A stretch of DNA of 35,264 nucleotides, taken from positions 1 to 35,264 of IMG/VR virus record IMGVR_UViG_3300013131_003222. The stretch is one strand, 5' to 3'. A model generated the notes under the pieces. That model was not told the DNA's origin and searched no databases. It saw only the letters and a list, made by a program, of their open reading frames with translations. Position 1 is the stretch's first letter, and every line of letters begins with the position of its first letter. The stretch comes from a virus. Shown piece by piece: positions 6,414-35,096 of the stretch. Made by a program: the position numbers and the translations under genes.

Positions 6414-6416
6414 AAA

Positions 6417-6965: not shown

Positions 6966-6970
6966 AAAAT

Positions 6971-7834: not shown

Positions 7835-8423
7835 ACAAACACATCTTATTTCTTTTTTAAGAGATTCTAATGGCATATGGAATCCACCATATGTGTCTGC
7901 GCCTGGATTAATAGAAGTATTTAAAAATCATTTTAATGGCACTCCGATTAAAGGCATTGAAATAGGGGTAGCAAATGCCTGGAATATGGTATATTTTTTA
8001 GATAATATTCCTAATTTACATATTACAGGTATAGATCCATTTCTTCCTTACATGGACTGGGTAGGTATGATAGATGAAAAAACTATTACTGCTCAATATG
8101 AAGTAGCAATGGATAACTTATCAAAATATATTTCAGATAATCGTGCATTATTTTACAGAGAAAAATGTGAAGATATAAAAAACAATTTTTTAGATTTAGA
8201 TTATGATTACATTTTTATTGATGGCGATCATTCGTATGAAGCAGTAGCTAGAGATTTAAAAAATTATTATAGTAAAGTTAAACCTGGAGGAATAATTTCT
8301 GGACACGATTATCATCTTTTAGATGTTCAAAGAGCTGTGTCGGAATTTAGGCAAACTTTTTCTGGTAAAAATATTCCTCCATTAAATTTCACAACTAACA
8401 GTGTTTGGTTTTGGAAAAAATGA
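7809..8423 (+). CDS. Class I SAM-dependent methyltransferase (Methyltransf_24-like)
   Basis: This 204-residue protein has motif I as GIEIGVANAWN, motif II around TGIDPFLP, and DYIFIDGDHSYEAVARDL followed by KPGGIISGHDY. The IDGDHSYE...KPGG pattern is typical of the Methyltransf_24 group acting on sugars and secondary metabolites. It overlaps the genes on both sides, with the ATGA overlap at its end. Confidence 0.85.
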   Translation: MKNMENYNKQTHLISFLRDSNGIWNPPYVSAPGLIEVFKNHFNGTPIKGIEIGVANAWNMVYFLDNIPNLHITGIDPFLPYMDWVGMIDEKTITAQYEVAMDNLSKYISDNRALFYREKCEDIKNNFLDLDYDYIFIDGDHSYEAVARDLKNYYSKVKPGGIISGHDYHLLDVQRAVSEFRQTFSGKNIPPLNFTTNSVWFWKK

Positions 8424-11297: not shown

Positions 11298-11358
11298 TAT
11301 GGGATCAGAACTTAATCAAGATATGTATGTAATAATATTTTTAATTCTTCTATAATTT

Positions 11359-12354: not shown

Positions 12355-13304
12355 CAATATTTGTTGCAGGACATAGAGGATTAGTAGGATCAGCAATAGT
12401 TAGAAATTTAATTCAAATGGGGCTAAATAGAAATGATTTAATTTTAAAAACACATTCTGAATTAGATTTAACTAATCAAACTGCAGTAGACAATTTCTTT
12501 AATGAACATAAAATAGATCAAATTTATTTAGCTGCAGCTAAAGTAGGTGGGATACATGCTAATAATCTATATCCTGCAGATTTTTTATATCATAATTTAA
12601 TGATAGAAACTAACGTACTTAGTAATGCTAATAAACATAACATAAACAAGGTGTTATTTTTAGGTTCTACATGTATATATCCAAAATTTGCAACTAATCC
12701 TATTACTGAGGATCAGTTACTAACTGGTAAATTAGAACATACAAATGAATCATATGCAATCGCAAAAATAGCAGGATTGAAACTATGCGAAGCATTTAAT
12801 CGACAATATAACAGACAATATAGATCAGTCATGCCAAGTAATTTGTATGGCATATATGATAGTTTTCATCCTGAAAATAGTCATGTTATCCCAGGAATGA
12901 TGCAAAGATTTCACGCAGCTAAAGTTAAAAAAGAAAATGCAGTTACAGTGTGGGGAGATGGTACTCCGAGACGAGAATTTACTTATTGTGATGATTTGGC
13001 GTTAGCTTGTATTATTGTACAGAATGTTTCTGACAAAAATTTTAGGAATATTACTACTCCGTACGATAGTGCCATTAATATAGGACCAGGATATGATATC
13101 ACTATTTCAGAATTAGTAGAAAATATGAAAACAGTAACTGGGTTTACTGGTGATATTATTTATGATAAATCTAAACCAAATGGCACTTTAAACAAGTTGA
13201 CTGACAACTCAAAAATTATTTCGTTAGGTTGGAAACCTCAAGTATCAATTTTATCGGGATTACAAAAAACATATTCTTGGTATTGCGAAAATTTAGTTAA
13301 ATAA
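12351..13304 (+). CDS. fcl: GDP-L-fucose synthase (GDP-4-keto-6-deoxymannose 3,5-epimerase-reductase)
   Basis: This 317-residue protein matches Fcl closely: GHRGLVGSA at the N-terminus, AAAKVGGIHANN, GSTCIYPK and SYAIAK. Visible catalytic residues are S106, Y135 and K139 of the SDR triad, plus C108 and H178 for epimerisation, each one residue before its E. coli equivalent. It converts GDP-4-keto-6-deoxymannose to GDP-L-fucose with NADPH. Some members act on GDP-heptose intermediates, which the neighbouring HddA-like kinase makes worth considering. A GT10 transferase in the same transcript is a plausible user of the product. Confidence 0.92.
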   Translation: MTIFVAGHRGLVGSAIVRNLIQMGLNRNDLILKTHSELDLTNQTAVDNFFNEHKIDQIYLAAAKVGGIHANNLYPADFLYHNLMIETNVLSNANKHNINKVLFLGSTCIYPKFATNPITEDQLLTGKLEHTNESYAIAKIAGLKLCEAFNRQYNRQYRSVMPSNLYGIYDSFHPENSHVIPGMMQRFHAAKVKKENAVTVWGDGTPRREFTYCDDLALACIIVQNVSDKNFRNITTPYDSAINIGPGYDITISELVENMKTVTGFTGDIIYDKSKPNGTLNKLTDNSKIISLGWKPQVSILSGLQKTYSWYCENLVK

Positions 13305-13315
13305 AAAAGAAATTA

Positions 13316-14050
13316 ATGAATAAAAAGGCACTTATATTTGTTCCCACTGGAACAACATTCAATTATGATAATCGCTATGATATGTCTGCTCATTGGAGAA
13401 GTACTAGGCCGGAAAGAACTTATGAAATTCTTTCTGCAATGTATGATGATAGTGTGCCTGATCCATCCACTTATGATTATTTAGCAAAAGTAAAAGATCA
13501 TAAGTGGCAGATGGTTAGAAAAATTTTCAAAAATATTGATATCGACAGATATGATTATATTGGATGTATTGACGATGACGAAGTAACAGATGTGTGGAAT
13601 CTTAATAGAGGATTAGAATTAGCTAGAAGATTTGATTTTAGATTATGGCAGTTGTCTATGGCTCCAGGTTCTCAGATTTGGTATGATTGCCTTAAACAAG
13701 ACACATCTATTGACTTTAGTGAGACTAATTTTTTAGAATGCGGTGTGCCTGTTTTTAGAACAGATATCTTTAAAAAAATATTAGCAGTACTAGACGAATG
13801 GAAAGATTTTGAGCAAGGTTGGGGAATGGATAAAGTATATTGTGATATAGCTCAATCTAATGCTCACGTAATTCATTGTGCTTCTGTTTACCATCCTCCT
13901 AGATCAGGATACTATGATAAAAGTCATGCAATGCAAGAATTGCATGACTTTACAAATACAATTTATCCCAGGATAATAAAAAAACTATACAATAGAGATA
14001 GCTTATTTGTAGATCAGCAATCGACTTATCGAAAATATAAATTAAGATGA
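13316..14050 (+). CDS. DUF707-like glycosyltransferase-related protein
   Basis: This 244-residue protein has the sequence YDYIGCIDDDEVTDVWNLN, resembling the Asp-rich strand of DUF707 proteins (YDYIFLWDDD-like), and later FLECGVPVFRTDIF and QGWGMD, also typical of that family. DUF707 proteins are predicted GT-A glycosyltransferases. Near its 3' end is a perfect 12-bp inverted repeat (13920-13951). It overlaps the oxygenase gene by ATGA. Confidence 0.65.
   Translation: MNKKALIFVPTGTTFNYDNRYDMSAHWRSTRPERTYEILSAMYDDSVPDPSTYDYLAKVKDHKWQMVRKIFKNIDIDRYDYIGCIDDDEVTDVWNLNRGLELARRFDFRLWQLSMAPGSQIWYDCLKQDTSIDFSETNFLECGVPVFRTDIFKKILAVLDEWKDFEQGWGMDKVYCDIAQSNAHVIHCASVYHPPRSGYYDKSHAMQELHDFTNTIYPRIIKKLYNRDSLFVDQQSTYRKYKLR
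13920..13951 (+). repeat. Perfect 12-bp inverted repeat (strong hairpin) inside the DUF707-like gene
   Basis: AAAGTCATGCAA (13920-13931) and TTGCATGACTTT (13940-13951) are exact reverse complements separated by 8 bases. The transcript would form a stable stem-loop about 100 bases before the gene end. No U-run follows, so it is not a classical terminator. Confidence 0.85.
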
Positions 14051-14799
14051 TTAATCTAACAGATAAAGATTGGTATAGATTACATGAAGAATTCATTACC
14101 AATGAACCGTATAACCATATTATTATAGATAATTTATTTAATGCAGAAATTGCAAATAACATCTATGAATCTTTACCAGATTATAATTCAGATAAAATAG
14201 ATGCTAATTATAACAATCCAATAGAAAGAAAAAAAACAATCCAAAATTGGACGACATTTAATGCTACGATCTATAAAGTAATGAGTTATTTTGTGGGGAC
14301 TGAATTTACTCAATATATGAGAATACTTACAGGGCAAAAAAATTTAGAAGCAGATTATGGATTACATGGTGGCGGTATTCATATGCATGGCAACGGTGAT
14401 TATTTAAATGTTCATTATGATTATGATATCCATCCTAAGTTAAAGAAACAAAGAAAATTAAATATTATAACCTATTTTACGCCTGATTGGAAAGAAGAAT
14501 GGAATGGGCATTTAGAATTATGGTCACATGATGTTAAAAATAATCAACCAAAAGAATGTGTGAAACGAGTATTGCCTAAATTCAATAGATCAATTATTTT
14601 CGATACCACACAAAATAGTTGGCATGGCTTACCTATTCCTTTAAATACGCCTGCTGGAGTATTACGTAGAAGTTTAGCTGTTTATTATGTGATTCCTACA
14701 GATATTAAAGAGTCTAGAATGAAAGCATTATTCGCACCCACTGAAACACAAAAGTCTGATCAAGATGTATTAGACTTTATAAAAAGGAGATCACAATGA
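14047..14799 (+). CDS. 2-oxoglutarate/Fe(II)-dependent oxygenase
   Basis: This 250-residue protein has the double-stranded beta-helix metal triad: H123-Y-D125 in NVHYDYD, and the distal His H193 in SWHGLP. An Arg pair (R207/R208) at about the expected spacing would bind 2-oxoglutarate. The block ITYFTPDWKEEWNGHLELW matches the prolyl-4-hydroxylase-like group. Such oxygenases are frequent in aquatic T4-like phages. Here it ends the glycan island, so sugar or lipid hydroxylation is as likely as protein hydroxylation. It overlaps its neighbours on both sides. Confidence 0.85.
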   Translation: MINLTDKDWYRLHEEFITNEPYNHIIIDNLFNAEIANNIYESLPDYNSDKIDANYNNPIERKKTIQNWTTFNATIYKVMSYFVGTEFTQYMRILTGQKNLEADYGLHGGGIHMHGNGDYLNVHYDYDIHPKLKKQRKLNIITYFTPDWKEEWNGHLELWSHDVKNNQPKECVKRVLPKFNRSIIFDTTQNSWHGLPIPLNTPAGVLRRSLAVYYVIPTDIKESRMKALFAPTETQKSDQDVLDFIKRRSQ

Positions 14800-19439: not shown

Positions 19440-19527
19440 GCCCAGGTGGCGAAATTGGAGAGACGCACAAGACTTAAAATCTTGCACATTAGAAACGTTG
19501 CGGGTTCGAATCCCGCCCTGGGTACCA
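19440..19527 (+). tRNA. tRNA-Leu (UAA), CCA encoded
   Basis: Acceptor GCCCAGG (19440-19446) pairs with CCTGGGT (19517-19523), with one G-U. The D-stem is GCG/CGC, the anticodon stem CAAGA/TCTTG encloses CTTAAAA (anticodon UAA), and a long variable arm follows, typical of class II leucine tRNAs. The T-arm is GCGGG-TTCGAAT-CCCGC, and the 3' end ACCA is encoded. UUA is a common codon in this AT-rich genome, so the tRNA probably supports phage translation. Confidence 0.93.
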
Positions 19528-19529
19528 AA

Positions 19530-19769
19530 ATGAAAGATATATTAATTTTCTATCATATTTCTATTATGAATACTTGGAAAGTTAGCCATAATATGATAGA
19601 TAATTATTTTCAACAGTCTTGCGGAAATATTTTTTGGACAAAAACTAATTTTTTAAGAAAGTTAAGTTTATTAGAATGGAATCCTAATTCAATAAATGAT
19701 AGAATGAATGCTGAAAGATTATTGGGATCAAGAGGTGGAAATTTCTATAATTTAGGCGATTGGTTATGA
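19530..19769 (+). CDS. Hypothetical protein (80 aa)
   Basis: The frame reads MKDILIFYHISIMNTWKVSH and starts two bases after the tRNA CCA; a longer frame from 19446 would read through the tRNA and is rejected. The N-terminus resembles short glycan-island proteins with an FYHI-type first strand, but it is too short for a complete enzyme. It may be a fragment left by recombination at the tRNA. No SD is evident. Confidence 0.4.
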   Translation: MKDILIFYHISIMNTWKVSHNMIDNYFQQSCGNIFWTKTNFLRKLSLLEWNPNSINDRMNAERLLGSRGGNFYNLGDWL

Positions 19770-19799
19770 TGTCTTTTTAATAACTTTTAAGGAAACTAG

Positions 19800-20486
19800 A
19801 TGGCAATTATTACTCGTATTACCTATAAAGATTTACCAGAAACTAATTTAACAGGCGTTACCGGTCTTACTGATGGCAATTTTGTAGGCGATGGTAAAAT
19901 CGATATTCTTATTGAAGCAATCGGAACTGCTAAAGATATTGATACTATTGGATTAGGCGTAAAATTGGCAGATATTACCTTTTCTAAAGGTAAAGAAACA
20001 ATGCTAGCTACACATGCCGATCTTCCTGATGTTGTTTTGTCTATGCAAAGTATTGAACGTGTTATTGGTGCAGATAAAGCAGTAGCCTTTGATGTTTCTG
20101 GTAATGCAGGTGAAGTATATGCTTTGTTAGCTACTGCTTTCGGTAAGACAGATGTTACACCTGCATTAGTAGGCAAATATTTATATCACAAAGATGCGGG
20201 CAAAACAGATACTGAAATTGCTAAAATGATTCTTGATTCCACTGAATATAAAGCAGATGCACTTGGTAGTAGTAATGAAACATTTGTCAAACAAGTTTAT
20301 AAAAATTTATTGAATCAAACACCTAGTTTTGCAGATTTGCTATATTTTACTATTGAATTGGACAAAGGCACATTTACTCAATCACAATTATTGGAAGCAG
20401 CTAGTAATTTGGAATTAACTAGAGACGTGGATCATATCAACCTTGTTGGTATGAATACTATAGAATATACACCTTTCGGCGGTTAA
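19800..20486 (+). CDS. DUF4214-like protein
   Basis: This 228-residue protein has SD AAGGAAAC before the ATG. The C-terminal half contains a DUF4214-like helical pattern: ETFVKQVYKNLLNQTPSFAD, then LLYFTIELDKGTFTQSQLLE and a final INLVGMNTIEYTPFGG. DUF4214 domains occur in large secreted or surface proteins of aquatic bacteria. The N-terminal half is a beta-rich region without a known domain. No signal peptide is present. A virion surface or host-derived adhesin role is only inferred. Confidence 0.6.
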   Translation: MAIITRITYKDLPETNLTGVTGLTDGNFVGDGKIDILIEAIGTAKDIDTIGLGVKLADITFSKGKETMLATHADLPDVVLSMQSIERVIGADKAVAFDVSGNAGEVYALLATAFGKTDVTPALVGKYLYHKDAGKTDTEIAKMILDSTEYKADALGSSNETFVKQVYKNLLNQTPSFADLLYFTIELDKGTFTQSQLLEAASNLELTRDVDHINLVGMNTIEYTPFGG

Positions 20487-20527
20487 TTTTAGCCCCTTAG
20501 TGCATAGAGGCATCTAATATTAAAAAG

Positions 20528-20621
20528 GATGCTTTGTGCGGCCATAGCTCAGTGGTAAGTCAGCACTCCGCTCATAACGGATAGGTCCCTGGTTCGAATC
20601 CAGGTGGCCGCACAAAGCATC
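20528..20621 (+). repeat. Inverted repeat extending the acceptor stem of the CAU tRNA
   Basis: GATGCTTTGT (20528-20537) and ACAAAGCATC (20612-20621) are perfect reverse complements that abut the tRNA acceptor strands, giving a continuous 17-bp helix. The left arm can alternatively pair with GCATC at 20510-20514. Confidence 0.85.
20538..20612 (+). tRNA. tRNA with CAU anticodon (Met or Ile2), no encoded CCA
   Basis: Acceptor GCGGCCA (20538-20544) pairs perfectly with TGGCCGC (20605-20611). The anticodon loop is CTCATAA (CAU) on a CTCCG/CGGAT stem with a C-U mismatch at the base. The T-arm is CCTGG-TTCGAAT-CCAGG. The D-stem is weak, GCT/AGC plus a C-C mismatch. CCA is not encoded. Whether it is elongator Met or lysidine-modified Ile cannot be told from sequence by eye. 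Confidence 0.85.
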
Positions 20622-20654
20622 TTAATTTGCCTCACGCGGGGACACCAAATTTAT

Positions 20655-21371
20655 ATGAAAAAAGCACTCGTTATAACACCTACTACCGGAGCATCTGAAT
20701 TACTAGATGCTATAGAATCTGTTAAGAATCAAACATATGAGCATGTAGAACACCTCATCGTTATAGATGGCAAAGAGTTTTCTGATAGAACTAAAAAATT
20801 AGTTAATAAAAATACTCTTATATGCGAATTGCCGTATAACACGGGTGGTGGAGGATGGTATGGTCATAGGGTAATGGCAGCATTTAGTCATCTAGTCCCA
20901 CATGATTATATTTTATTTTTGGATCAAGATAATTGGTATCAACCAAATCACATAGAAAAATTAATTTACACAATAGAAAAATTTAATTTTGATTGGGCGT
21001 TTTCTTTAAGAAACATTTTTTCTGTTAATAAAGAATTTATTTGCCAAGATAACTGTGAATCGTTGGGTAGATTTTCTGCATGGGTAGATGATAAGGTACA
21101 TCTAGTTGATTCTAGTTCTTATTGTTTTACTAATGCTTTCATACGAAAATACGGATATATCTGGGATCATGGTTGGGGAGCTGATAGAAGATTTTATACC
21201 ATAATTACAGAAGTATTAAAACATACTAATTTCGGATGTAGTAATAATTATACATTATGCTATAGATTAGGGGGTAACGAAGGGTCAGTTAATGCAGAGT
21301 TTTTCATTGAAGGTAATGAAAAAATTAAATTAAAATACGGGGAATTTTTTCCCTGGAACAGGACTATATAA
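20655..21371 (+). CDS. GT2-like (GT-A fold) glycosyltransferase
   Basis: The protein is 238 residues from ATG 20655; the frame open from 20604 would start inside the tRNA and is rejected. It begins KKALVITPTTGASELLDAIE, has SVKNQTYEHVEHLIVIDG, and a DxD-type motif in ILFLDQDNWY (D90, D92). This is the standard layout of family 2 enzymes, with a nucleotide-sugar and metal-binding centre. It lies away from the main glycan island, between two tRNAs, which suggests separate acquisition. Confidence 0.78.
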   Translation: MKKALVITPTTGASELLDAIESVKNQTYEHVEHLIVIDGKEFSDRTKKLVNKNTLICELPYNTGGGGWYGHRVMAAFSHLVPHDYILFLDQDNWYQPNHIEKLIYTIEKFNFDWAFSLRNIFSVNKEFICQDNCESLGRFSAWVDDKVHLVDSSSYCFTNAFIRKYGYIWDHGWGADRRFYTIITEVLKHTNFGCSNNYTLCYRLGGNEGSVNAEFFIEGNEKIKLKYGEFFPWNRTI

Positions 21372-21445
21372 TGGAGTCAATTTCCAGAGAAATTATTCGT
21401 AGTTGATAAATACATTATAAAACAAATAGAAAATAAAACATTTAG

Positions 21446-21519
21446 CGCGGGTTGGTGAAACGGTATCACAGAGGACTCATAATCCTCAGTCTCTAGTTCG
21501 AATCTAGAACCCGCAACCA
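21446..21519 (+). tRNA. Initiator-like tRNA-Met (CAU), CCA encoded
   Basis: With the T-arm fixed as TCTAG-TTCGAAT-CTAGA, the acceptor strands are CGCGGGT and ACCCGCA, leaving C1 and A72 unpaired. This mismatch is the hallmark of bacterial initiator tRNA, and the ends closely match CGCGGG...CCCGCAACCA of E. coli fMet. The D-stem is GTGA/TCAC, the anticodon stem GAGGA/TCCTC and the loop CTCATAA. The three G-C pairs usual in initiators are only two here, and the 11-24 pair is of elongator type, so the identity is probable, not certain. Confidence 0.8.
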
Positions 21520-21577: not shown

Positions 21578-21605
21578 AGCGTACCAGATCATTATCCAGT
21601 ACGCT
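21578..21605 (-). terminator. Hairpin after the minus-strand operon, possible terminator
   Basis: AGCGTAC (21578-21584) pairs with GTACGCT (21599-21605). It lies ten bases beyond the stop of the last minus-strand gene. No T-run follows, so efficiency is uncertain. Confidence 0.45.
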
Positions 21606-21614
21606 ACTATAACA

Positions 21615-22238
21615 TCAAGATAAGCTAATTGGCTTGATTGCTGGTTTACCAATTGGTTTAACTCCAGGTGTTGGACCACTAGATATTGGACTTGGATCAT
21701 CCATTGGATCGGGCCCCATATCTCCACGCATAGGCATCGGATCATTCATCCCCATACCTCCACCCATTGATATTGGAGCAGGACCTAAAGGTCTTGGGCC
21801 CCCAGGTTTATTTAATCCATTCATCGCATTAGCCTGTGCTGCGGCACCTGCCATCGCAGCTTCTTTACCTGATCCTGCAAGCATTATACCTGATAATGTA
21901 CCACATAAGAATGTAGCAACTGGAATGATAAGTTCAAAGAATTTTTGATCTATTGGACTAATAGCATTCAAAGGTTGTGTGACAAACATGATACTGTAAA
22001 GAACAGTAAAAACAATGCCAATAAGAGTGAGCGCCAAGCAGACTCCGATAAAGAATTTAAGGCGGACCATAAGTTCATTTTCTGTATACCTCTCTCCTGG
22101 TTTAGATGCTTTCTCACCTTTATGTTCGTCTTTCTTTGTTGGTGTTGGTGATGATTTTTTTATTGGTGTAGGCACAGTAGTTTGTTTAGGTGCACTATCA
22201 TTGATTCCAGGATCTTTAAACATGTCTTTAATTCCCAT
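21615..22238 (-). CDS. Two-pass membrane protein with Pro/Gly/Met-rich tail
   Basis: This 207-residue protein is last in the minus operon, with SD GGGAG. The N-terminal 50 residues are Lys/Pro/Thr-rich. Hydrophobic segments span about 61-86 and 101-122. The tail from about 140 is rich in Gly, Pro and Met (SMGGGMGMNDPMPMRGDMG) and probably disordered. No family is recognised. The topology suggests both ends face the cytoplasm, with a short loop outside. Confidence 0.7.
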   Translation of the reverse strand: MGIKDMFKDPGINDSAPKQTTVPTPIKKSSPTPTKKDEHKGEKASKPGERYTENELMVRLKFFIGVCLALTLIGIVFTVLYSIMFVTQPLNAISPIDQKFFELIIPVATFLCGTLSGIMLAGSGKEAAMAGAAAQANAMNGLNKPGGPRPLGPAPISMGGGMGMNDPMPMRGDMGPDPMDDPSPISSGPTPGVKPIGKPAIKPISLS

Positions 22239-22463
22239 TTATTTAGCTCCCTTACATTGTTCACACTTATCGGGACTAGAAAAAGATGCTACGCCTTCTT
22301 GTCCTTTAAAAATATGTTCAGGGCAATCTCTTGAAACCTCGCAATACGGTTTCTTACAATAATCCTTATCCCAATTATCTGGATTTTGACAAGGATATCG
22401 GTACCTAGCTTCGCATCCAAATAATAATAAACCTGTAAAAATAACAGCAATTAATTTAACCAT
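22239..22463 (-). CDS. Cys-rich lipoprotein (74 aa)
   Basis: The protein from the ATG at 22463 begins MVKLIAVIFTGLLLFGC, a textbook lipoprotein signal with a lipobox ending at Cys17. The mature part has seven further Cys residues (CQNPDNW, YCKKPYC, RDC, KCEQC), suggesting disulfides in the periplasm. An in-frame ATG at 22478 would add five residues, but it weakens the signal peptide and lies inside the upstream gene. Size and lipidation would allow an outer spanin, but the Cys-rich body is not typical of one. Confidence 0.75.
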   Translation of the reverse strand: MVKLIAVIFTGLLLFGCEARYRYPCQNPDNWDKDYCKKPYCEVSRDCPEHIFKGQEGVASFSSPDKCEQCKGAK

Positions 22464-22984
22464 GGTATCCACATCCAAATTGCTTGACTGACTAGCAACG
22501 ATCCAAAAGCACCAACTATCGTACTAATATAAAACATTGGCATACTAACTGCCAAGATACTAGCAGTCAATAAAACTATTCCTATTTGTAATGCAGAACC
22601 TCCCCAGGTAAACCAAGGAGATTTTAATTTCGCAGCATCTCTTTCTGCTTCTAATATTTTAGCCTTCTCCATAATTTCTTTTTTATCGTCACTCATACGT
22701 TTAGCTTCAGCTAGAAATTTATCCTTGTTCTCGGGTTTACTTGCTTCAGCTGCACTTATTTCATATAGAACACCTCGAACGTTCTTGGCTTGATACCACG
22801 CCCACATATTGTTAGCTTGAATAGTATTATTTTGAATCTTACTAGAATTACTACCCCCTAGCATAGTATTTATGGCCAGTACCGCAGCCAAAAAGACAAT
22901 GATAAATCCTGCCTTATCTTTTATCTTTGCTTCACGTTCACTTCTGGTTAAAGGTTTTGGGTCTTTCGATTGTTGGTCTGTCAT
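22451..22984 (-). CDS. DUF4337-like membrane protein
   Basis: This 177-residue protein has one N-terminal transmembrane helix (about 25-42), a charged helical middle (about 75-120) and two C-terminal transmembrane helices. The segment MWAWYQAKNVRGVLYE just after the first helix is characteristic of DUF4337. That family is of unknown function and widespread in bacteria. SD GGAGATTG precedes the ATG. It overlaps the genes on either side. Confidence 0.72.
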   Translation of the reverse strand: MTDQQSKDPKPLTRSEREAKIKDKAGFIIVFLAAVLAINTMLGGSNSSKIQNNTIQANNMWAWYQAKNVRGVLYEISAAEASKPENKDKFLAEAKRMSDDKKEIMEKAKILEAERDAAKLKSPWFTWGGSALQIGIVLLTASILAVSMPMFYISTIVGAFGSLLVSQAIWMWIPWLN

Positions 22985-23309
22985 TTACAATCTCCTTAGG
23001 TTTATTTACGTACTTATCAAGAATAGCATTACCTACCCAAGCAGCCATATATCCCATAAAATACCATTCACTAAATCGTTCCTCAACTATAAGATAAACA
23101 AAGCCCCAGGTACTAACTATCCATGCTCCGAATCTGACAAATTTCTTCTCATCTAATTTGCCACTACTACATATCAAATCTTTTAAATCAATATTACTAT
23201 CACTATTTCTATGCCATACCCAAAGTAACAGAATAAGAAAAAGCACAACCAACATTAATATGGAACTCATGGCAAATTGTGCCTTGTTAATATCTGTCCA
23301 ATCAATCAT
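22938..23309 (-). CDS. Membrane protein (123 aa)
   Basis: There is a strongly hydrophobic segment SSILMLVVLFLILLLWVW near residues 15-32, then a short hydrophilic part and two further hydrophobic stretches (AWIVSTWGFVYLIV and WYFMGYMAAWVGNAIL). The number of helices and short length would fit a holin, but the tail and the setting do not prove it. The start overlaps the upstream stop as TAATG. The 3' end overlaps the next gene by 47 bases. Confidence 0.65.
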   Translation of the reverse strand: MIDWTDINKAQFAMSSILMLVVLFLILLLWVWHRNSDSNIDLKDLICSSGKLDEKKFVRFGAWIVSTWGFVYLIVEERFSEWYFMGYMAAWVGNAILDKYVNKPKEIVNDRPTIERPKTFNQK

Positions 23310-23944
23310 TACTTCCCTTCATACATTACATCAGTAGTATCACCTAATGCCCATTTTGGATTGGTTTCTACTCTGTAAATTTTAGTACAAACTTTGAAAT
23401 CAGGGAATTTTAAATTTTTCGGATTACTTGCAGCATCCAAAAATATACATCTGTTATTTGGTTGTGCTGCATATTGGCCGTTATCTAGTTCTATAAAATT
23501 AAAGCTCTTATGATCCTCCGGCCATTCTGCGTAAGTGGTATCTATAATGTTTGGATCAGAATGTGCATTGTCTACCGTAAACATATATCCGCCACTGTAG
23601 AAGTTTTTATCTTTTGCATAAAATTTACAGGTCAAATTTTTAAGAAAAGATTTTTGTAATACTGTAACATCATGAGAAAAACAATCCCAAATTTGTAATG
23701 TATCTAAGGGTAACAATGGACCTAAATTTTCTGTCCTAGATACAAATGCATGTAAAGGAAGTTTATCATATAGAGCTCCATAGTTGGGCATGTATGATTC
23801 AATTCTAAACGCTTGTCCTCTAATGGATTTTACTGTTACCCAGATACAAGGTTCATATTCCCCGTGTCCTTTTTCAAAATCATAAAGAAATTCTTTTCTA
23901 ATGTAACAATGTACAGGGGGAATATTTGCTATAAGATGTGCCAT
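23309..23944 (-). CDS. Hypothetical soluble protein of the envelope operon (211 aa)
   Basis: The protein starts MAHLIANIPPVHCYIRKEFL. It has no signal peptide or membrane helix and looks beta-rich with many aromatic residues (FYSGGYMFTVDN, YAEWPEDHKSFNFIEL). No domain is recognised. It is the only member of the operon without an evident membrane or export signal, so it may be a virion part or a cytoplasmic partner. It is coupled on both sides by TAATG overlaps. Confidence 0.6.
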   Translation of the reverse strand: MAHLIANIPPVHCYIRKEFLYDFEKGHGEYEPCIWVTVKSIRGQAFRIESYMPNYGALYDKLPLHAFVSRTENLGPLLPLDTLQIWDCFSHDVTVLQKSFLKNLTCKFYAKDKNFYSGGYMFTVDNAHSDPNIIDTTYAEWPEDHKSFNFIELDNGQYAAQPNNRCIFLDAASNPKNLKFPDFKVCTKIYRVETNPKWALGDTTDVMYEGK

Positions 23945-24597
23945 TATTTGTTTGCTAAAGGATTGTCAAGAGCTTTCTTAAGTTTTTCGTCTAGATCTCT
24001 TTGTGCTGCTTTTAACTTAGAATCAATTTCCTTATTATTAGCAGCAATTGCCTTGGTATTTTCTGCTGCCATGCGATTTATTTCTTTAGTTGCAGAGTTT
24101 ATACTGGCGTCAGCTTGCTTCTGAATATTTCTAACATCTGTTTTTACTTCGGCAACCGTTCGATCTATTTCTCTTTGTTGAGTTTTATTACTGCGTTCAA
24201 CGTCTTCTACAGTTTTCTCTAAACGGCGTATATCATTCTTTAGATCATTTTTGATGTCTCGAGTATATTCCGCTGTTTTATCACTGCCCTCTTGTACAGC
24301 CTTTTGAGTCTTGCTGGCATTTTCTTCTATAAGAGCCAGACGTTTATCAAACTCTGTTAGATCAGGTGCAATATATTCAGCGATCTTTTTCTTCATTCCG
24401 ATGTAATCTTTGTATACCTCAAATGCTCCATAAAGTCCACCTAATATGCTGGAGACCAATGTAGCTGCTACCATTAGTTTAGCTGGTGTAAACTCATAGC
24501 CACCTATACTAATTACAGTGTCTTTACTGGCATATTTTTTAACTGCTGCTTCGGCATCATCAATCTTTTTATTTACATCTACCTTTTCTTCTGACAT
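23944..24597 (-). CDS. Membrane-anchored coiled-coil protein
   Basis: This 217-residue protein has a single hydrophobic segment, AKLMVAATLVSSILGGLYGA, near residues 39-62, followed by a long heptad-like coiled coil (about 75-215) rich in Lys, Glu, Asp and Ala. The build resembles stalk- or spacer-type envelope proteins. SD AGAAGG precedes the ATG. No family is assigned. Confidence 0.68.
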   Translation of the reverse strand: MSEEKVDVNKKIDDAEAAVKKYASKDTVISIGGYEFTPAKLMVAATLVSSILGGLYGAFEVYKDYIGMKKKIAEYIAPDLTEFDKRLALIEENASKTQKAVQEGSDKTAEYTRDIKNDLKNDIRRLEKTVEDVERSNKTQQREIDRTVAEVKTDVRNIQKQADASINSATKEINRMAAENTKAIAANNKEIDSKLKAAQRDLDEKLKKALDNPLANK

Positions 24598-24599
24598 TT

Positions 24600-27122
24600 T
24601 TACCTTCTGTATTGTTGATCCACCATTTCTTGGTGTAGTCTGTCAGAGGCTAATTGTCTTAGCGCTCTGGCGTTATCCACATTACGTTGATTTCTATAAA
24701 TCTCTTTTGGAGCATAGAAATTAGCATCAGATAAAGCTATCATATAATTACTGAAACCAGTAGGAGTCCTAGCAATAGTATCAATAGAAACTCCTGCGGC
24801 TGCATCGTTGTCCTGAACATTGGATTTAACCTGTTGTGTGTTTGTATCTTTTCGTTCCTGTTCAATAGTAGATTGTTTATTTTCAATGATATCGTTTATA
24901 GGATTGGTTCTATCTGTAGTAAAATTACTTTGAGCTTGAGGAATGTCTACTGCAACTACAGGTGCTATCATAACAGACTGAAAACTTTGACTGGGTTCTG
25001 TTATATTAGTTTGCTGAGGAGGTTGTAGTATGTTTATTTGTACAGAACTTGTGTTTACAGGTTGCTCAAAATTAGCGACCTCGGTTGGTTTTGTTTCTGT
25101 TATGTTTTGCTGCACTGGTGCCTGATAGGGTACTACAACAACTGGTGCTGTCTGAGAAAACACCGGAGGTTGCAGAGGATTAAACTGCTGTACTGGTTGC
25201 ACTGTAACTACTGACATGGCATTAAATTGAACTATGGCACTGGTGCTGGTCACTGTATTAGTTGTCTGAGGTGTAATATCTACAGCAGTCTGCCCCTGTG
25301 TTGTTCGTTGCTGTATGGCTAGATTGACTACACTGGTACTACCTGGTGCTGGTCCAATGTTTAGAATACTATCTGTTCTGGAACCAACAACGACATTTTC
25401 TGTTCCAGAATGTTGCTCCTGCTGTTGCTGCATATTTTGACTTCGATTAACAGCTTCCAGGGCAATGGCTTCGGCTTGTCGCGTACCTGCGCCAGCAGCT
25501 ACTGCTGCAGTCTGCATAGCGTTTTGGCTAGCCTGAGTTGCTATATTAGTTTCTCGTTCTTGATTTCTGTTGATAAGAGATAAAGCAAATGATGTTGTAT
25601 TGTTTTCTCTGGCACTTTCAGTTCTAGTAGCAGTTTGATTTGGTTGTGATCCAGAATCTCTTTGTGCAACTGTGTCTGCTGTAGTAGTTGTACTTGTAGA
25701 TTTAGGAGATGTTGTTGCAGCAGTTGTGTCAGTAGCTGTAACCGTAGTAGTGCTTACAGATGGACTTGCTGTATTTGCATCAGTAATTGTATTAGTAACC
25801 GTTCCACCGGGCGTAGACGATGTTGTTGATATGTTTGCAATAGTTTGTTCTAAAGAAGCTTTTTGTATCTTATTTTGCTCATCGGCCAGACGTTTGATTT
25901 CTGCATCAAAGTTGCTACAATTTTTACTGTACAAAGGCTGGTCGTAACAAGGATCAGGTGTCCATATAGGTCTGGTGTAACCAGCGAAACCCATGTTATC
26001 TCCGTATCCGCCATACACACTCCAGGATACATATCCCATGTTCAAGGTATTTTTAGTCTCTGTAAACAGCATACTACCACTTCTAGCACCACCGCTGTAA
26101 TTACCTTCCACCCACCAGTTTTGAGAAAATAAGCTATTGCCCAATTTATCAGTTATATTCAATGTAACATTTCTACCGTTAGCACCACTGCTTGATGTAC
26201 ACCACCACAAAAAGGTATTAGTACAGTAATCTCCTGCGTAATATCCAAATCCATAATCAAATCCATGTAATTGAACTCCACCGCCTATGTGAGGTAATGC
26301 AGTAGCAATATTATAGTTATTCCATATAAGAGGACTTAAAGGGCCTTGAAGAACAGCATTAAATCCTGGACAACTTGGAGCATAAGCAGGGTTTAATATA
26401 CAAGGATCAACGCTATAGTTTACATTTAAAAAAGCATCTTTAACTTGAGGGCCATAACAGTCTGGCATAAGGCAAGCCCAAAATCCAGCATCAGAACCAC
26501 TTATGCTTAAACTAAAAGTACCCAATGTAGCTAAAGATTTAGCTCCTGCAAATGTATGAGAATTATTTAATTGTTGCCAATTAGGATTGTATGGAGGATT
26601 ACCATCGTTTATATTTTTTAATCCTAACTGATGTAATTGAGACCATTCAACAGTTCCATTAGGGGATAAGTATTGAGCGGTTGCACTTAAATTATCTTGA
26701 AGACCATTTACATTTTCGCAACTTCCTCCTATACTATTAGCACATTGAAATCTATACTTAAATCCATAATTAAATCCAGTAACGAATATCGCACCGGTGT
26801 TCTGATAACCATGTACTAAGTTAGCTAAATTAGCAGATGTAGATATTGTACTATTGGCATAAGAGAAGGTATATCCATCATTGACAAAACTTCCCTGTAA
26901 ACCGCTCACGCTCCAACCTGTACTACTTTTTATACTACTATCATAAGGAATCATGTTGCCAGTAGTCAAATCAATACTATAACCGCTAGGTGTATTAACA
27001 GAGCCAGAAGTTACAGTTTGACCAAATACTGCGCCTGAAAGCAAAAGCAACGTAATACAAATGGCTAAAATAAAACCTTTAGTCCAAGTGTAGTTGTAAT
27101 GCTTGTGATTAAAATCGTCCAT
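24600..27122 (-). CDS. Large secreted protein (840 aa), Cys-containing head with Thr/Gln-rich tail
   Basis: A signal peptide with a long N-region is visible: GFILAICITLLLLSGAVFGQ, with likely cleavage after Gly34. Residues about 35-400 form a beta-rich, Gly/Asn/aromatic region with Cys pairs spaced in the manner of periplasmic disulfides (PCILNPAYAPSC, DPCYDQPLYSKNC). From about 420 the protein is Thr/Ser/Gln-rich and repetitive, probably fibrous or disordered, ending in a charged helix. The start is coupled to the upstream stop by TAATG. No family is recognised; an adhesin or fibre-like role is possible, but export before lysis is unusual for a virion fibre. Confidence 0.65.
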   Translation of the reverse strand: MDDFNHKHYNYTWTKGFILAICITLLLLSGAVFGQTVTSGSVNTPSGYSIDLTTGNMIPYDSSIKSSTGWSVSGLQGSFVNDGYTFSYANSTISTSANLANLVHGYQNTGAIFVTGFNYGFKYRFQCANSIGGSCENVNGLQDNLSATAQYLSPNGTVEWSQLHQLGLKNINDGNPPYNPNWQQLNNSHTFAGAKSLATLGTFSLSISGSDAGFWACLMPDCYGPQVKDAFLNVNYSVDPCILNPAYAPSCPGFNAVLQGPLSPLIWNNYNIATALPHIGGGVQLHGFDYGFGYYAGDYCTNTFLWWCTSSSGANGRNVTLNITDKLGNSLFSQNWWVEGNYSGGARSGSMLFTETKNTLNMGYVSWSVYGGYGDNMGFAGYTRPIWTPDPCYDQPLYSKNCSNFDAEIKRLADEQNKIQKASLEQTIANISTTSSTPGGTVTNTITDANTASPSVSTTTVTATDTTAATTSPKSTSTTTTADTVAQRDSGSQPNQTATRTESARENNTTSFALSLINRNQERETNIATQASQNAMQTAAVAAGAGTRQAEAIALEAVNRSQNMQQQQEQHSGTENVVVGSRTDSILNIGPAPGSTSVVNLAIQQRTTQGQTAVDITPQTTNTVTSTSAIVQFNAMSVVTVQPVQQFNPLQPPVFSQTAPVVVVPYQAPVQQNITETKPTEVANFEQPVNTSSVQINILQPPQQTNITEPSQSFQSVMIAPVVAVDIPQAQSNFTTDRTNPINDIIENKQSTIEQERKDTNTQQVKSNVQDNDAAAGVSIDTIARTPTGFSNYMIALSDANFYAPKEIYRNQRNVDNARALRQLASDRLHQEMVDQQYRR

Positions 27123-28552
27123 TATCTGAATGCACTAGCTGAATATTTTACTGGAGTAGGTTTAGGTACTTCGGTTTCAGTCTTGTAATCATACTGAGGT
27201 ACTTTGTTGGGATTAGCTGCCCATAAATCTTTGGCTTTTTCGCCAATCTGACCTTCATATGGGCAGGGAGTTCCAGCTGCCATCATTGCTTCCCAAACTC
27301 TTCTATCTTGACACATGGTAGCAACTGCGGCGACCTTCATGCCCATGTCATATAATGTTTTACTTAATTTTAAGCGTTCGCAATTTAGATCTCTTTGAGT
27401 ACCACCTAAAGCAAACCCCAAAAACTGAGTCTGTGCTGCACCACTAACGCCTGTAGTACATAAATCTTGCCCTCCACCAGACATCATGGCAGGAGCTATG
27501 GCAGTTGGGGGAGGCTGTACGACTCTTTGAGTAATAGTAGTCTCGTTGATATTTCTATTAGTCATGTCGCCAGTTTGAATATTCTGATTAACTGCTGTAC
27601 TATTATTTTGATTCATATTAGTATTAACTGTTGTAGCAGTAGATTGATTAATATTTCTATTAGTCATATCTCCTGTCTGCACATTGTTGTTATTATTCGT
27701 ATTAGTAGTTGTAGCAGTAGATTGATTAATATTTCTATTAGTCATATCACCAGTTTGAATATTGTTATTGGTGTTAGTGTTTGATGACGTGCTAGCATTC
27801 ACATTATTGTTGTTATACGTCATGGTGCCAGTATTGATATTGTTATTGGTACTGATACTGGTTGATGTATTAATGTTAGTATTTTTATTGTCACTGACAC
27901 TGGTCGATGTGTTGATATTTCTATTAGTCATGTCACCAGTATTGATGTTATTGTTAGTGTTTACACTAGTAGAAGTATTGTTATTGTTGTAGGTTACTGT
28001 ACCAGACATAATATTACGATTTGTACTATCAGAAGTGCTGGTATTTTGATTGATGTTGGTTATGGAACCAGATTGAATATTCTGATTAACATTAGTATTG
28101 GTATTATTAGTAGTACTGGTCGATGCATTATTATTGTTATACGTCATGGTACCAGAATTAACGTTGTTATTGTTGTAGGTAACCGACCCACTCATGTTGT
28201 TGTTATTGTTGTTGGTTACTGTACCACTTTGAACATTGTTGTTGGTGTTTACATTTGTACTAGTACTGATGCTAGTGTTTACATTGTTGTTGTTATTGGT
28301 ACTTGTACTGTTTACAGTGCTGGTATTAGTGTTGGTACTAGTACTGACACTGGTATTATTGGTTTGTACTGAGCTGGTACTATTTGATGTAGAATTGGTA
28401 TCCACCAGACTTTTAGAGTCATATGAACCCTGATTAATTGGATTAGTAGTACTGGTTGTGGTTCCACTTGTGGTGGATTGTGTGCTTGTGTTTTGCGCTA
28501 TTGCACTCGTGGTTAGCATTAATAAAAGCGCCGCGATCGCCGCTTTTAGCAT
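27122..28552 (-). CDS. Exported Asn/Thr/Ser-rich repeat protein (476 aa)
   Basis: A clear signal peptide, MLKAAIAALLLMLTTSAIAQ, opens the protein. Residues about 80-340 contain ten copies of a [ST]G[DST][MVI]T[NY] motif, each followed by Asn-rich spacers, for example QTGDMTNRNINQS. The Q-x-G...N...Q spacing recalls curlin repeats, but this is only a visual analogy. The C-terminal about 120 residues are a compact domain with Cys residues (LCTTG, RDLNCERLKL, MCQDRRVWEAMM, TPCPYEG). It is the first gene of the operon, with SD AGGAGAA. Confidence 0.72.
   Translation of the reverse strand: MLKAAIAALLLMLTTSAIAQNTSTQSTTSGTTTSTTNPINQGSYDSKSLVDTNSTSNSTSSVQTNNTSVSTSTNTNTSTVNSTSTNNNNNVNTSISTSTNVNTNNNVQSGTVTNNNNNNMSGSVTYNNNNVNSGTMTYNNNNASTSTTNNTNTNVNQNIQSGSITNINQNTSTSDSTNRNIMSGTVTYNNNNTSTSVNTNNNINTGDMTNRNINTSTSVSDNKNTNINTSTSISTNNNINTGTMTYNNNNVNASTSSNTNTNNNIQTGDMTNRNINQSTATTTNTNNNNNVQTGDMTNRNINQSTATTVNTNMNQNNSTAVNQNIQTGDMTNRNINETTITQRVVQPPPTAIAPAMMSGGGQDLCTTGVSGAAQTQFLGFALGGTQRDLNCERLKLSKTLYDMGMKVAAVATMCQDRRVWEAMMAAGTPCPYEGQIGEKAKDLWAANPNKVPQYDYKTETEVPKPTPVKYSASAFR
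27540..28260 (-). repeat. Diverged tandem repeats in the Asn-rich gene
   Basis: The DNA segment ATATTTCTATTAGTCAT, as read on the plus strand, recurs near 27548, 27652, 27727 and 27916, each followed by a similar ATGTCACCAGT-like string. Other, more diverged copies encode the SGTVTYNNNN version of the unit. The period is irregular (about 60-110 bases). Confidence 0.75.
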
Positions 28553-28661: not shown

Positions 28662-28690
28662 TTGACTTTCCAGTCCTTATTATTTATAAT
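28662..28690 (+). promoter_or_regulatory. Sigma70-type promoter of gp43
   Basis: TTGACT (28662-28667), 17 bases, then TATAAT (28685-28690). SD GTGGAG and the start at 28714 follow. Confidence 0.87.
28681..28688 (-). promoter_or_regulatory. T4-type late promoter candidate for the minus-strand operon
   Basis: The minus strand reads TATAAATA, identical to the T4 late-promoter core, followed by ATAAGG. It lies about 130 bases before the operon start and overlaps the -10 box of the gp43 promoter on the other strand. In AT-rich DNA the octamer can occur by chance. Confidence 0.45.
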
Positions 28691-32327: not shown

Positions 32328-32619
32328 GCCTTGGGGAATCAATAAGGCAGAAAAACAGTTATGGGGAGTTAAAATTGTAGATGGTATGTATGCAGATACA
32401 GTAATCAGTATTAATGAACTTAAATTTAGTGATCAGATTAATGGTGATGTAGAATTAGACTATGACTACATTACTAAAACAAAAGGATTGTCTGAGGAAG
32501 ATTATAAGACAGATGAATTTAACAAAATCATGTCTTATATTCTAGAAGATATTCTAAGAAAGGCGATTGATGAGCATAGTAAAGATAGAGACAGTAATAC
32601 TACAGAATCTTCTTCATAA
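32311..32619 (+). CDS. Hypothetical protein (102 aa) between uvsX and gp41
   Basis: The start chosen is ATG 32311 with SD TGAGGAG; an upstream ATG at 32284 lacks one. The protein reads MQVKYEPWGINKAEKQLWGV and has an acidic, helical C-terminus. It overlaps uvsX (17 bases) and gp41 (50 bases). Its position equals that of T4 gene 40, but I cannot confirm sequence relation. No domain is recognised. Confidence 0.65.
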   Translation: MQVKYEPWGINKAEKQLWGVKIVDGMYADTVISINELKFSDQINGDVELDYDYITKTKGLSEEDYKTDEFNKIMSYILEDILRKAIDEHSKDRDSNTTESSS

Positions 32620-33943
32620 CGAAGATTATATGAGAAAAACGATCCCGTTTCTAAAGCGGGATTATTTTACTGATTCTACAGAAAGAAGAATATTTGATTA
32701 TGCTAAAGAATTTATTGATAAGTATAATAATACTCCAAATATTGATGCACTAATAGTAAAATCTCAGAATGATAAATCGTTAGGAGATGAAGAATATAAA
32801 GAATTAGCAGAAACAATACAGCAACTTGTTCCTTCGGAACATAATAAAGAATGGTTAATAACTGAGACTGAAAAATTTTGTAAAGATAAAGCGGTATATA
32901 ATGCTATCCTAGCTTCGATTGCCATTATTGATGGAAGAGATAAAGCGCAATCTCAAGATGGGATTCCTCAAATTCTGCAAGACGCTCTGGGTGTTTGTTT
33001 TGATAATAATGTAGGGCATGATTATATTGATAACTCTGAATCAAGATTTGATTTTTACCATAAGGTTGAGTCTCGTATACCGTTTGATCTTGAGATGTTT
33101 AATAAGGTTACTAATGGTGGATTACCTAATAAGACATTAAATGTTGTATTGGCCGGTACAGGCGTTGGAAAATCTTTATTCATGTGTCATGTTGCGGCAT
33201 CCACTTTATCTCAAGGTAAAAATGTGTTATATATTACTATGGAAATGGCAGAAGAAAGAATAGCTGAGAGAATAGATGCTAATCTAATGAATGTAACAAT
33301 GGATCAACTAAAAGAATTACCTAAAGCTATTTTTGATAATAAAATTGAGAAAATAAGAAATAAAACTGAAGGTAAATTAATTATTAAAGAATATCCTACT
33401 GCCGGAGCACATGTAGGTCACTTTAATAGTTTACTAAATGAGTTACAGTTAAAGAAACAATTTAACCCTGATATAATTATTGTAGACTATTTAAATATAT
33501 GTGCTAGTTCTAGATTTAAAGCTGGAGCTAATATTAATTCATATACTTTAATCAAAGCAATAGCTGAAGAGTTACGTGGTATGGCAGTAGAAAATAATGT
33601 TCCTATATTGAGTGCTACTCAGACTACAAGAGGCGGGTATGGAAACACTGATGTTGAACTTACAGATACTTCAGAATGCCTAGACCCCACATCACAAGTA
33701 ATAACAGAATCTGGAGATACTATGGAAATCCAAAATTTGAAACCGGGTGATAGAATATTGGGTAGTAACGGGTTCGTTTCGGTGATTCAGGTACACCATA
33801 GTAAAATCAAAAAACTATATAAAATAAAAACCAGATCGGGCAAAAACATAATTTGTTCAGCAGATCATATCTTCCCAACAAGCGAAGGTAGAAAAAATAT
33901 AAACAATGGCCTGAGAGTTGGTTGTAAAATACGAAGTTTATAA
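32570..33943 (+). CDS. 41: Replicative helicase gp41 N-terminal fragment fused to an intein N-half
   Basis: This 457-residue frame consists of gp41 residues 1-369 and an intein N-terminal segment (370-457). Helicase features are Walker A GTGVGKS (196-202), TMEMAEERIAERID, Walker B DIIIVDYLN (301-309) and SATQTTRGG, then ELTDTSE, where the intein begins. DnaB-type helicases continue as S-G/F after this point, so the C-terminal helicase part is missing here and must be encoded elsewhere. The start is ATG 32570 (TTG at 32567 is the alternative), inside the end of the previous gene. Function requires protein trans-splicing with an IntC-gp41C partner not in this window. Confidence 0.9.
   Translation: MSIVKIETVILQNLLHNEDYMRKTIPFLKRDYFTDSTERRIFDYAKEFIDKYNNTPNIDALIVKSQNDKSLGDEEYKELAETIQQLVPSEHNKEWLITETEKFCKDKAVYNAILASIAIIDGRDKAQSQDGIPQILQDALGVCFDNNVGHDYIDNSESRFDFYHKVESRIPFDLEMFNKVTNGGLPNKTLNVVLAGTGVGKSLFMCHVAASTLSQGKNVLYITMEMAEERIAERIDANLMNVTMDQLKELPKAIFDNKIEKIRNKTEGKLIIKEYPTAGAHVGHFNSLLNELQLKKQFNPDIIIVDYLNICASSRFKAGANINSYTLIKAIAEELRGMAVENNVPILSATQTTRGGYGNTDVELTDTSECLDPTSQVITESGDTMEIQNLKPGDRILGSNGFVSVIQVHHSKIKKLYKIKTRSGKNIICSADHIFPTSEGRKNINNGLRVGCKIRSL
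33677..33943 (+). other. Split-intein N-half (IntN, 88 residues) in gp41
   Basis: Cys370 is the intein residue 1. Block A is CLDPTSQVITESGD, followed by EIQNLKPGDRIL. Block B is GKNIICSADHIFP, with the block B His at 433. The segment ends at LRVGCKIRSL and a stop codon, about where an endonuclease domain would sit in a full intein. From memory, sequence and length resemble the gp41-1 split IntN known from ocean metagenomes, although the insertion site here is a few residues further along, in the DTSE|S motif. Confidence 0.9.
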
Positions 33944-33946
33944 ATA
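33939..33946 (+). promoter_or_regulatory. T4-type late promoter candidate for the endonuclease gene
   Basis: TATAAATA overlaps the stop codon of the gp41-IntN frame and lies 38 bases before the endonuclease start. It matches the T4 late-promoter core exactly. In T4 several homing endonuclease genes use late promoters. Confidence 0.5.
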
Positions 33947-33983
33947 TTTTGTAGTTAAAATATTTATGGCAACGGGAGATTTT

Positions 33984-35096
33984 ATGGCTAAACCAGTAAA
34001 AGTATTAACTAATATACATGATAAATTTTTACAAATTACTAAATATAAAGAATGGCAGCAGTTTGAAATTGAAGATATGAATGATGAAAGAAAGACAGCT
34101 GCATACGAGGCATTGGGCAAAATAGATTATAAAAATCATATTCATGTAAAAAAACTAGCCAGACTATGTAAATATGCTACTCCCGATGAAATTTCAACAA
34201 ATATAGAATTATCTTTAAAAATTTCTAAATACGGGTCTTCTTTAGATAAACTTATAATTATGTTTGGTAAAAAAGAGGGCGAAAACAGATTTAACAAAAG
34301 TTTACAACATCTTTCTAAAAATGGTAAAAAGGGATCTTTCTCTAAAGATTATTGGGTATCTAGAGGTTATACCGAAAATGAGGCAAGGGATATAATTTCC
34401 TCTAAAAATAAAGAATTTGCTAAACTAAAAACTGAAAAATATTCTAAAAAAGAATTATCAGACTTATTACGCATTAAAAATCCTATATGTAAAGAATATT
34501 GGATCAGTCAAGGATTTACTGATCTTAAAGAAATTGAAAATCTAAGAAAAGAATATTTTACCAGTAGCCAAACATTTTTTATCAACAAATATGGTACCGA
34601 AGATGGAATATTTAAATTCGAGGAAAAATATAAGAAAAGAAAAGATACTATCATACAAAAATATGGCTCAATTTCCTTATTGTCGGGTTATATTAAAAAA
34701 GCATCTAAGGAATCTAGAATAATTTTAGATAAATTAGCAGACTTGTGTGATAAACTACAAATAAAATACTTTTATGGAATAGATGGCAACACCGAATGGT
34801 GGTGTAGAGATATAAATGATAAATCTAAATTTTATTTTTATGATTTTACTATACCTCAGTTAAATTTAATTTTTGAATATAATGGTGTGGCTTGGCATCC
34901 TAGGGGTTCTAAAGAAGAATTCATTAGTCCTATTTCGGACAAATACGATTATCTAAAACAATATGACATTCAGAAGATTAAATCTGCGGAGAATCAAAAC
35001 TTTAAAGTAATAATTTTGTGGAGCGATGAGGATAAAATTATTAATACCCAAAAAAGTATACAAATAATACAGGAAGAGTATGATAACCTTAGATAA
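33984..35096 (+). CDS. Free-standing Vsr-like (EDxHD) homing endonuclease
   Basis: The protein is 370 residues from ATG 33984, with SD GGGAG eight bases upstream; in-frame starts at 33966 and 33918 are less favoured. The N-terminal about 230 residues look like DNA-binding repeats: KDYWVSRGYTENEARDI (121-137) against KEYWISQGFTDLKEI (170-184), and IIMFGKKEGENRF against FFINKYGTEDGIFKF. The C-terminal nuclease has Vsr-fold landmarks: E271, D287 in FYDFTIP, IFEYNGVAWHP with H305, then an Asp-containing helix (near D322) and VIILWSDED. This fits the EDxHD homing endonucleases found within fractured phage genes. It sits directly after the split-intein N-half. Confidence 0.85.
   Translation: MAKPVKVLTNIHDKFLQITKYKEWQQFEIEDMNDERKTAAYEALGKIDYKNHIHVKKLARLCKYATPDEISTNIELSLKISKYGSSLDKLIIMFGKKEGENRFNKSLQHLSKNGKKGSFSKDYWVSRGYTENEARDIISSKNKEFAKLKTEKYSKKELSDLLRIKNPICKEYWISQGFTDLKEIENLRKEYFTSSQTFFINKYGTEDGIFKFEEKYKKRKDTIIQKYGSISLLSGYIKKASKESRIILDKLADLCDKLQIKYFYGIDGNTEWWCRDINDKSKFYFYDFTIPQLNLIFEYNGVAWHPRGSKEEFISPISDKYDYLKQYDIQKIKSAENQNFKVIILWSDEDKIINTQKSIQIIQEEYDNLR

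Follow-up and report, generated by a model that had tools for sequence, protein, structure and literature searches.

A conserved three-gene core of predicted envelope proteins, P8-P7-P6, in freshwater and marine phages

We show here that a minus-strand operon of a T4-like phage consists of a three-gene core, P8-P7-P6, together with satellites, and is not one eight-part system. We rate the core as an accessory module of phage late and lysis regions whose function is undescribed. It recurs beside lysis genes, which makes it probable that its products act late in infection, on the host envelope; the reading we prefer, with a probability of about 0.4, is that P8-P7-P6 forms a virus-specific late module working on the envelope as infection ends. 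This reading is built on the conservation and order of the genes, their predicted signals and transmembrane segments (TMs), the predicted fold of P7 and the identity of neighbouring genes, and from these we infer the localisation of the products, their assembly into a complex, their ligand, the timing of their expression and the outcome of the module.

Results

The operon and its surroundings

The window, by which we mean the entire 35,264-base virus contig that was analysed, derives from a T4-like phage, and its DNA polymerase is nearest to cyanophage polymerases (~50-52% identity). Eight open reading frames (ORFs), all on the minus strand, run from 28552 to 21615 and are named P8 (first) to P1 (last; Table 1). 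They are joined by overlaps of 1, 28 or 47 nt or separated by gaps of 0-2 nt, and the whole is bracketed by a late-promoter-like site and a terminator-like hairpin, which agrees with the eight-gene minus-strand operon proposed in an earlier, sequence-only reading of this DNA. Hydropathy, on which all signal peptide and TM calls are based, gives P8, P7 and P2 a signal or TM segment at the N-terminus and P6 an internal TM, and counts one clear TM in P4 and two each in P3 and P1. P5 alone has neither a signal nor a TM, so that the earlier count of seven exported or membrane products among the eight holds. The DUF4337-like protein and the Cys-rich lipoprotein of that reading are likewise recovered: P3 matches DUF4337 (PF14235) with an E-value of 6e-30 and 104.9 bits against a cut-off of 27, and P2 has a lipobox and seven cysteines. 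The true start of P2 may be an in-frame ATG at 22463.

Three tRNA genes (Leu-TAA and two Met-CAT) lie in the window at 19440-21515, just past the 3' end of the operon. Inspection by eye also identified an island of methyltransferase, nucleotide-sugar and glycosyltransferase-like genes at 5775-14799, which probably serves surface-glycan modification. Within 32567-35096 a gp41-type helicase ORF enters an intein-like N-terminal segment (CLDPTSQVITESGD...GDRILG) and then stops, and a second ORF at the contig end (33918-35096) resembles a homing endonuclease, both again as judged by eye.

Table 1. Features of the operon and its flanks, with counterparts of the core in cultured phages.
Feature	Position or genes	Strand	Description
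Sigma-70-like site of the divergent DNA polymerase gene	28662-28690	+	TTGACT-17-TATAAT; consensus match only
T4-type late-promoter-like site	28681-28688	-	TATAAATA; ~129 nt upstream of P8
P8 (core gene 1)	27122..28552	-	476 aa; signal peptide, Asn/Thr/Ser-rich repeats, C-terminal domain ~aa 345-455
P7 (core gene 2)	24600..27122	-	840 aa; signal peptide, predicted beta-sandwich domains, low-complexity linker, conserved C-terminal 60 aa
P6 (core gene 3)	23944..24597	-	217 aa; one TM ~41-59, long coiled coil, C-terminal DNPLANK motif
P5	23309..23944	-	211 aa; phrog_3704 family of T4-like marine phages; no TM or signal
P4	22938..23309	-	123 aa membrane protein; phrog_1322; rare satellite
P3	22451..22984	-	177 aa membrane protein; DUF4337; frequent satellite
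P2	22239..22478	-	79 aa Cys-rich lipoprotein; YPCQNPDNWDKDYCKKPYCEVSRDCPEHIF core; satellite, paired with P1
P1	21615..22238	-	207 aa; two TMs; phrog_25359; Gly/Pro/Met-rich tail; satellite
Terminator-like hairpin	21578-21605	-	12 pairs; directly 3' of P1
Core counterparts, pelagiphages	HTVC033P gp46-45-44; HTVC023P gp45-46-48; HTVC202P gp24-26; Mosig 202-200; HTVC115P gp54/53/49		
Core counterparts, roseophages	CRP-207, CRP-810		

Conservation and reach of the core

Every one of the 89 first-round viral loci that encode P8, P7 and P6 has the three genes in identical order and on the same strand, with overlaps or gaps of a few bases in most cases; the conservation check suggested by the sequence-only reading thus came out in its favour, and unlinked genes, the contrary outcome, were not found. 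An independent search seeded with P6 placed P7 upstream in 61 of 65 loci and P8 in 55. Each of three IMG/VR searches yielded roughly 550 or more viral stretches with P8 or P6: the P8 search at least 550 confirmed, the P6 search at least 561 and the marine P8 search at least 547, with 80 relatives kept from each. P7 gave 37 loci. Carriers range from the 32 kb HTVC202P to contigs of 400 kb and come from both freshwater and the sea. Besides metagenomic records, P8 is found in six cultured pelagiphages and two cultured roseophages, and one core carrier, HTVC033P, is among the most abundant pelagiphages (PMC9038755). A prophage or bacterial origin was rejected, since among 84,980 prokaryotic species P8 occurs in just 11 contigs, each titled as a MAG or bin and several sharing one bin.

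No family in Pfam, NCBIfam, PADLOC or the named PHROGs describes the core, for which the earlier statement of no known function therefore stands, and in the literature searched no publication described the P8-P7-P6 module. Matches of P6 to ZorA and similar proteins are most likely coiled-coil noise, and a defence system was discarded as a candidate.

The satellites

The proposal of an undescribed system survives for the three-gene core and fails at its eight-gene boundary, because P5 belongs to a cytosolic family, P4 is rare, and P1 and P2 can occur without the core. P3, P2 and P1 lie downstream of the core in 47, 28 and 33 first-set loci, many of them freshwater relatives, and P4 in six loci only, the window among them. 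The P2-P1 pair is present with no core nearby in Actinomycetia phage DSL-LC01 (L131 5762-6291), which has an assigned actinobacterial host. P1 matches no holin in Pfam or the named PHROGs and is holin-like in size and topology only (two TMs); in ct7L0027 it is flanked by the core on one side and by a GH19-type endolysin gene on the other. Several T4-like relatives (L092-L099, L105 and L122; cluster c25) have a gene with a Guanylate_cyc domain between P6 and the satellites, on the opposite strand.

The P5 family is found in 114 phage records, and the public names 'PurM' and 'ferredoxin' were set aside, as Pfam gives P5 neither domain. In P-SSM4 the family member sits between hsp20 and gp43, and in HTVC008M it adjoins ribonucleotide reductase, so that an ancestral position may explain the presence of P5 in the operon of the window; this does not explain why 35 of 38 marine loci have P5 close to the core.

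The core proteins

In P8 a signal peptide and a conserved N-terminal stretch are followed by Asn/Thr/Ser-rich repeats, which vary in length, and then by a C-terminal domain; a signal-like N-terminus is present in 80 of 88 homologues. The marine-phage P8 proteins are only ~200-260 aa long with a short repeat region, which identifies the C-terminal domain as the constant part. Four cysteines of this domain (365, 391, 414 and 430) are invariant across 45 aligned sequences, and the domain is probably closed by disulfides. The AlphaFold model of P8 is of low confidence (mean pLDDT 51); it contains short helices, reaches pLDDT values of ~85-93 at residues 411-450, and renders the N/T/G/Q repeats, again with low confidence, as strand-turn-strand units. 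Against Pfam P8 has no match at E-values up to 1, and hence no curlin repeat match.

P7 is predicted to comprise an FBA/CBM-like domain (residues ~50-236) and a second beta-sandwich (262-388), and AlphaFold modelling of residues 1-430 gives two beta-sandwich domains with a mean pLDDT of 79. The model of domain 1 aligns with the sugar-binding domain of Fbs1 (2e33) at a Z-score of 15.4 and 2.3 A over 151 residues, above the Z-scores of 11-12 obtained with CBM61 and CBM16. The sequence gives independent agreement: when the P7 profile was compared with all PDB sequences, it found FBXO6, FBXO2 and FBXO44 only (E 5e-4 to 7e-3), in a match that runs through the motif GxDxxFWAGxYGP. The tryptophan of this motif, a glycan contact in Fbs1, corresponds to Trp215 of P7 and is kept in at least 90%. 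The Pfam FBA family (PF04300) itself matches four of 44 P7 homologues, the best with an E-value of 2e-4, and does not match P7 of the window. As modelled, domain 1 has an FBA-type fold, and it may bind glycan.

A signal-like N-terminus is found in 83 of 97 P7 homologues. Two pelagiphage-type P7 proteins show a weak CBM_4_9 match instead of FBA, two pelagiphage-type entries carry their depositors' label 'carbohydrate binding domain', and in the roseophage counterparts an FBA/CBM-like domain was seen neither by eye nor with Pfam. A BFVD search with P7 returned mostly uncharacterised or tail proteins, and folds of the FBA/CBM type occur in tail proteins too.

The hallmark of P6 is its C-terminus: NPL or NPM lies no more than five residues from the end in 105 of 107 P6-like ORFs, as against 4 of 2237 other ORFs. 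The NPL tail is shared by the third genes of Mosig, HTVC202P, HTVC023P, HTVC033P, Baldr, S28C10 and the roseophages, and this links the divergent marine triads to the core of the window. Lys and Arg are somewhat commoner after the TM than before it, leaving the orientation of P6 ambiguous. Two public annotations, 'putative lysozyme' for CRP-207 gp73 (L006 3292-3873) and 'lysozyme' for CRP-810 gp51 (L007 6330-6752), were not upheld; both proteins are P6-like with an NPL tail, and neither has a lysozyme domain. In L071-L073, P6-like genes form a tandem pair after P7.

Neighbouring genes and a candidate late promoter

Genes for cell lysis adjoin the core in several lineages, a link that is recurrent without being universal. 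A GTA_holin_3TM gene directly precedes P8 in Mosig, Peptidase_M15 directly follows P6 in HTVC023P, with M15 relatives near 18 of the 38 marine loci, and Amidase_2 and Phage_lysozyme lie beside the core in HTVC033P and ctXG6705, respectively. Downstream of P6 in L083 and L088 there is Phage_lysozyme together with an Rz-like spanin. In eight contigs a GH19 endolysin gene is found at a distance of 8-97 bp from the core, and several of the eight have an Rz1-like o-spanin gene immediately before it; these eight contigs, and likewise the 38 marine loci, are each a related set and not independent. GH19 adjacency was rejected as a general rule, direct contact being confined to one freshwater contig set; 17 of the 32 contigs with a GH19-type gene have it more than 20 kb from the core. 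Over these 32 contigs, which are related, the GH19-core distances differ from a uniform distribution (KS p 2e-4). The core stands shortly before terminase in S28C10, HTVC202P and Baldr, a position also occupied by the lysis genes of T7, and core genes lie downstream of tail or structural genes in S28C10 and HTVC115P. The core of the window and of its near relatives adjoins DNA polymerase, with no recognised lysis gene nearby, and many T4-like and jumbo relatives have it next to DNA polymerase or distant from the endolysin gene.

Of 84 P8 genes, 30 have the octamer [ACT]ATAAATA in the 250 nt preceding them, compared with 8.4% of other genes on the same contigs and with 11 of 84 in the opposite-strand control; the 84 P8 genes are non-identical, with many of the phages related. 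This excess supports, and does not prove, a late-type promoter before P8.

Discussion

According to the model that we favour, the operon would be transcribed late and P8 and P7 would be exported by Sec. The FBA/CBM-type domain of P7 would bind an envelope glycan, P8 would form an extended Asn/Thr-rich structure, and P6, by means of its TM and coiled coil, would serve as the inner-membrane anchor and offer, in the NPL tail, a fixed contact site. The resulting assembly might aid opening of the envelope, or it might keep released progeny off host debris; these two outcomes, the latter amounting to less re-adsorption of progeny, are indistinguishable from the present evidence. P1-P4 would be accessory membrane parts, and the module would work alongside holin, endolysin and spanin, not in place of them. 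The sequence-only reading had offered superinfection exclusion, envelope remodelling, fibre display or lysis as functions; lysis and envelope action best fit the neighbours and the late-promoter-like site, a curli-type fibre system is not supported, CsgG being absent from 49 long relatives, and exclusion is left with chance-level homology.

A different account holds that exported P7, with P8 and perhaps P2, coats host glycans and thereby blocks adsorption to infected cells or debris. The lectin-like character of the P7 domain and the inclusion of a lipoprotein, P2, in the operon are in keeping with this, and the P7 N-terminal domains vary by lineage in a way that would suit variable surface glycans, being FBA-like in freshwater and weakly matching CBM_4_9 in pelagiphages, with neither type seen in roseophages. 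The Llp lipoprotein of phage T5 is a precedent for surface masking, though not against a glycan (PMC9586334). Llp is early, however, while P8 is preceded by a late-promoter-like site; the linkage of the core is to lysis genes; the membrane coiled coil of P6 would be left unexplained; and the match of the superinfection exclusion family phrog_4980 to four of 25 P3 members (best E 0.02) is at chance level. We consider masking unlikely. It is improbable that the genes form no single system, being unrelated late membrane genes brought together with a core that acts outside the envelope or lysis: P1-P5 do differ among relatives and the placement of the core changes between lineages, but its order and strand are strict in phages from 32 kb to 400 kb and the NPL motif is conserved.

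Much the same low standing attaches to the idea that the virion contains P7 and P8 as fibre or adhesin components, their hydrophobic N-termini not functioning as signals. Most homologues have signal-like N-termini, the conserved Cys sets fit an oxidising compartment, the constant partner is the membrane protein P6, and in T4-like relatives the core is on the strand opposite to the gp43-uvsX-gp41 block; these points are set against the frequency of CBM-like domains among tail proteins and the location of the genes behind tail or structural genes in S28C10 and HTVC115P. Least probable of all, and by our estimate very unlikely, is a curli-like amyloid display in which P8 would be a functional CsgA/B equivalent forming extracellular fibres for 'sibling capture'. 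Pelagimyophages carry curli modules (PMC7029224, PMC9599517), the P8 repeats are modelled, with low confidence, as strand-turn-strand units, and in some relatives a cyclase gene lies inside or next to the module. CsgG (PF03783) was absent from the window and from all 49 long relatives, in which contigs may be incomplete, under a search that was positive for control genomes, and curli secretion was rejected on this ground; P8 matches no curlin repeat, the repeat region of marine P8 is short with the C-terminal domain as the constant part, and HTVC008M has CsgF and CsgG yet no P8 match.

Returning to the late envelope module, a more ambitious and doubtful proposition, which we put forward tentatively, is that P8-P7-P6 represents an undescribed class of phage late function, exported, glycan-binding and membrane-tethered, that cooperates with holins, endolysins and spanins while being distinct from them and is spread over phages of 32-400 kb infecting freshwater and ocean hosts. 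A conserved exported module of such reach, now labelled 'hypothetical protein', would be a missing part of how phages exit from or alter diderm cells, and a cultured host, SAR11 HTCC1062, and core-carrying phages exist.

Comparison with known systems

The phage lysis cassettes of holin, endolysin and Rz/Rz1 are adjoined by the core in several lineages and resemble it in encoding envelope proteins with likely late timing; the core differs in having no sequence match to any holin, endolysin or spanin family and in coexisting with spanins and lysozyme. Set against the architecture of the Rz/Rz1 pair, P6 has a TM and coiled coil, though in ambiguous orientation, and P2 has a lipobox but is often absent; neither P6 nor P2 matches spanin families. 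An Rz1-like gene is present in 30 of the 49 relatives, and this coexistence indicates that the core is not a spanin substitute; spanin replacement was rejected given the separate spanin genes beside the core, such as the Rz-like genes of L083 and L088. T5 Llp is, like P2, a small phage lipoprotein with predicted envelope export; the Cys-rich P2 differs in matching no named exclusion family and in being encoded in a larger operon downstream of a late-type promoter site.

The curli or type VIII secretion modules of pelagiphages (PMC7029224, PMC9599517, PMC9004378) also pair an exported Asn-rich repeat protein with marine phages; the core differs in having no CsgG (0 of 49 contigs) and no curlin repeat match, and the lack of CsgG from the long relatives marks the published modules as a different system. 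To Fbs1 and the FBA family (PF04300), CBM16 and CBM61, the likeness is in the fold of P7 domain 1, with the GxDxxFW...YGP motif present in P7; unlike Fbs1, the domain belongs to a secreted phage protein without an F-box. Also among the closest are the gene sets of cultured pelagiphages and roseophages, for which annotation goes no further than hypothetical, carbohydrate-binding, OmpA-family or an unsupported lysozyme. Their P8 has no long repeats and the N-terminal domain of their P7 is of another type, yet they share with the window the order of the genes, the C-terminal domain of P8 and an NPL-tailed third protein.
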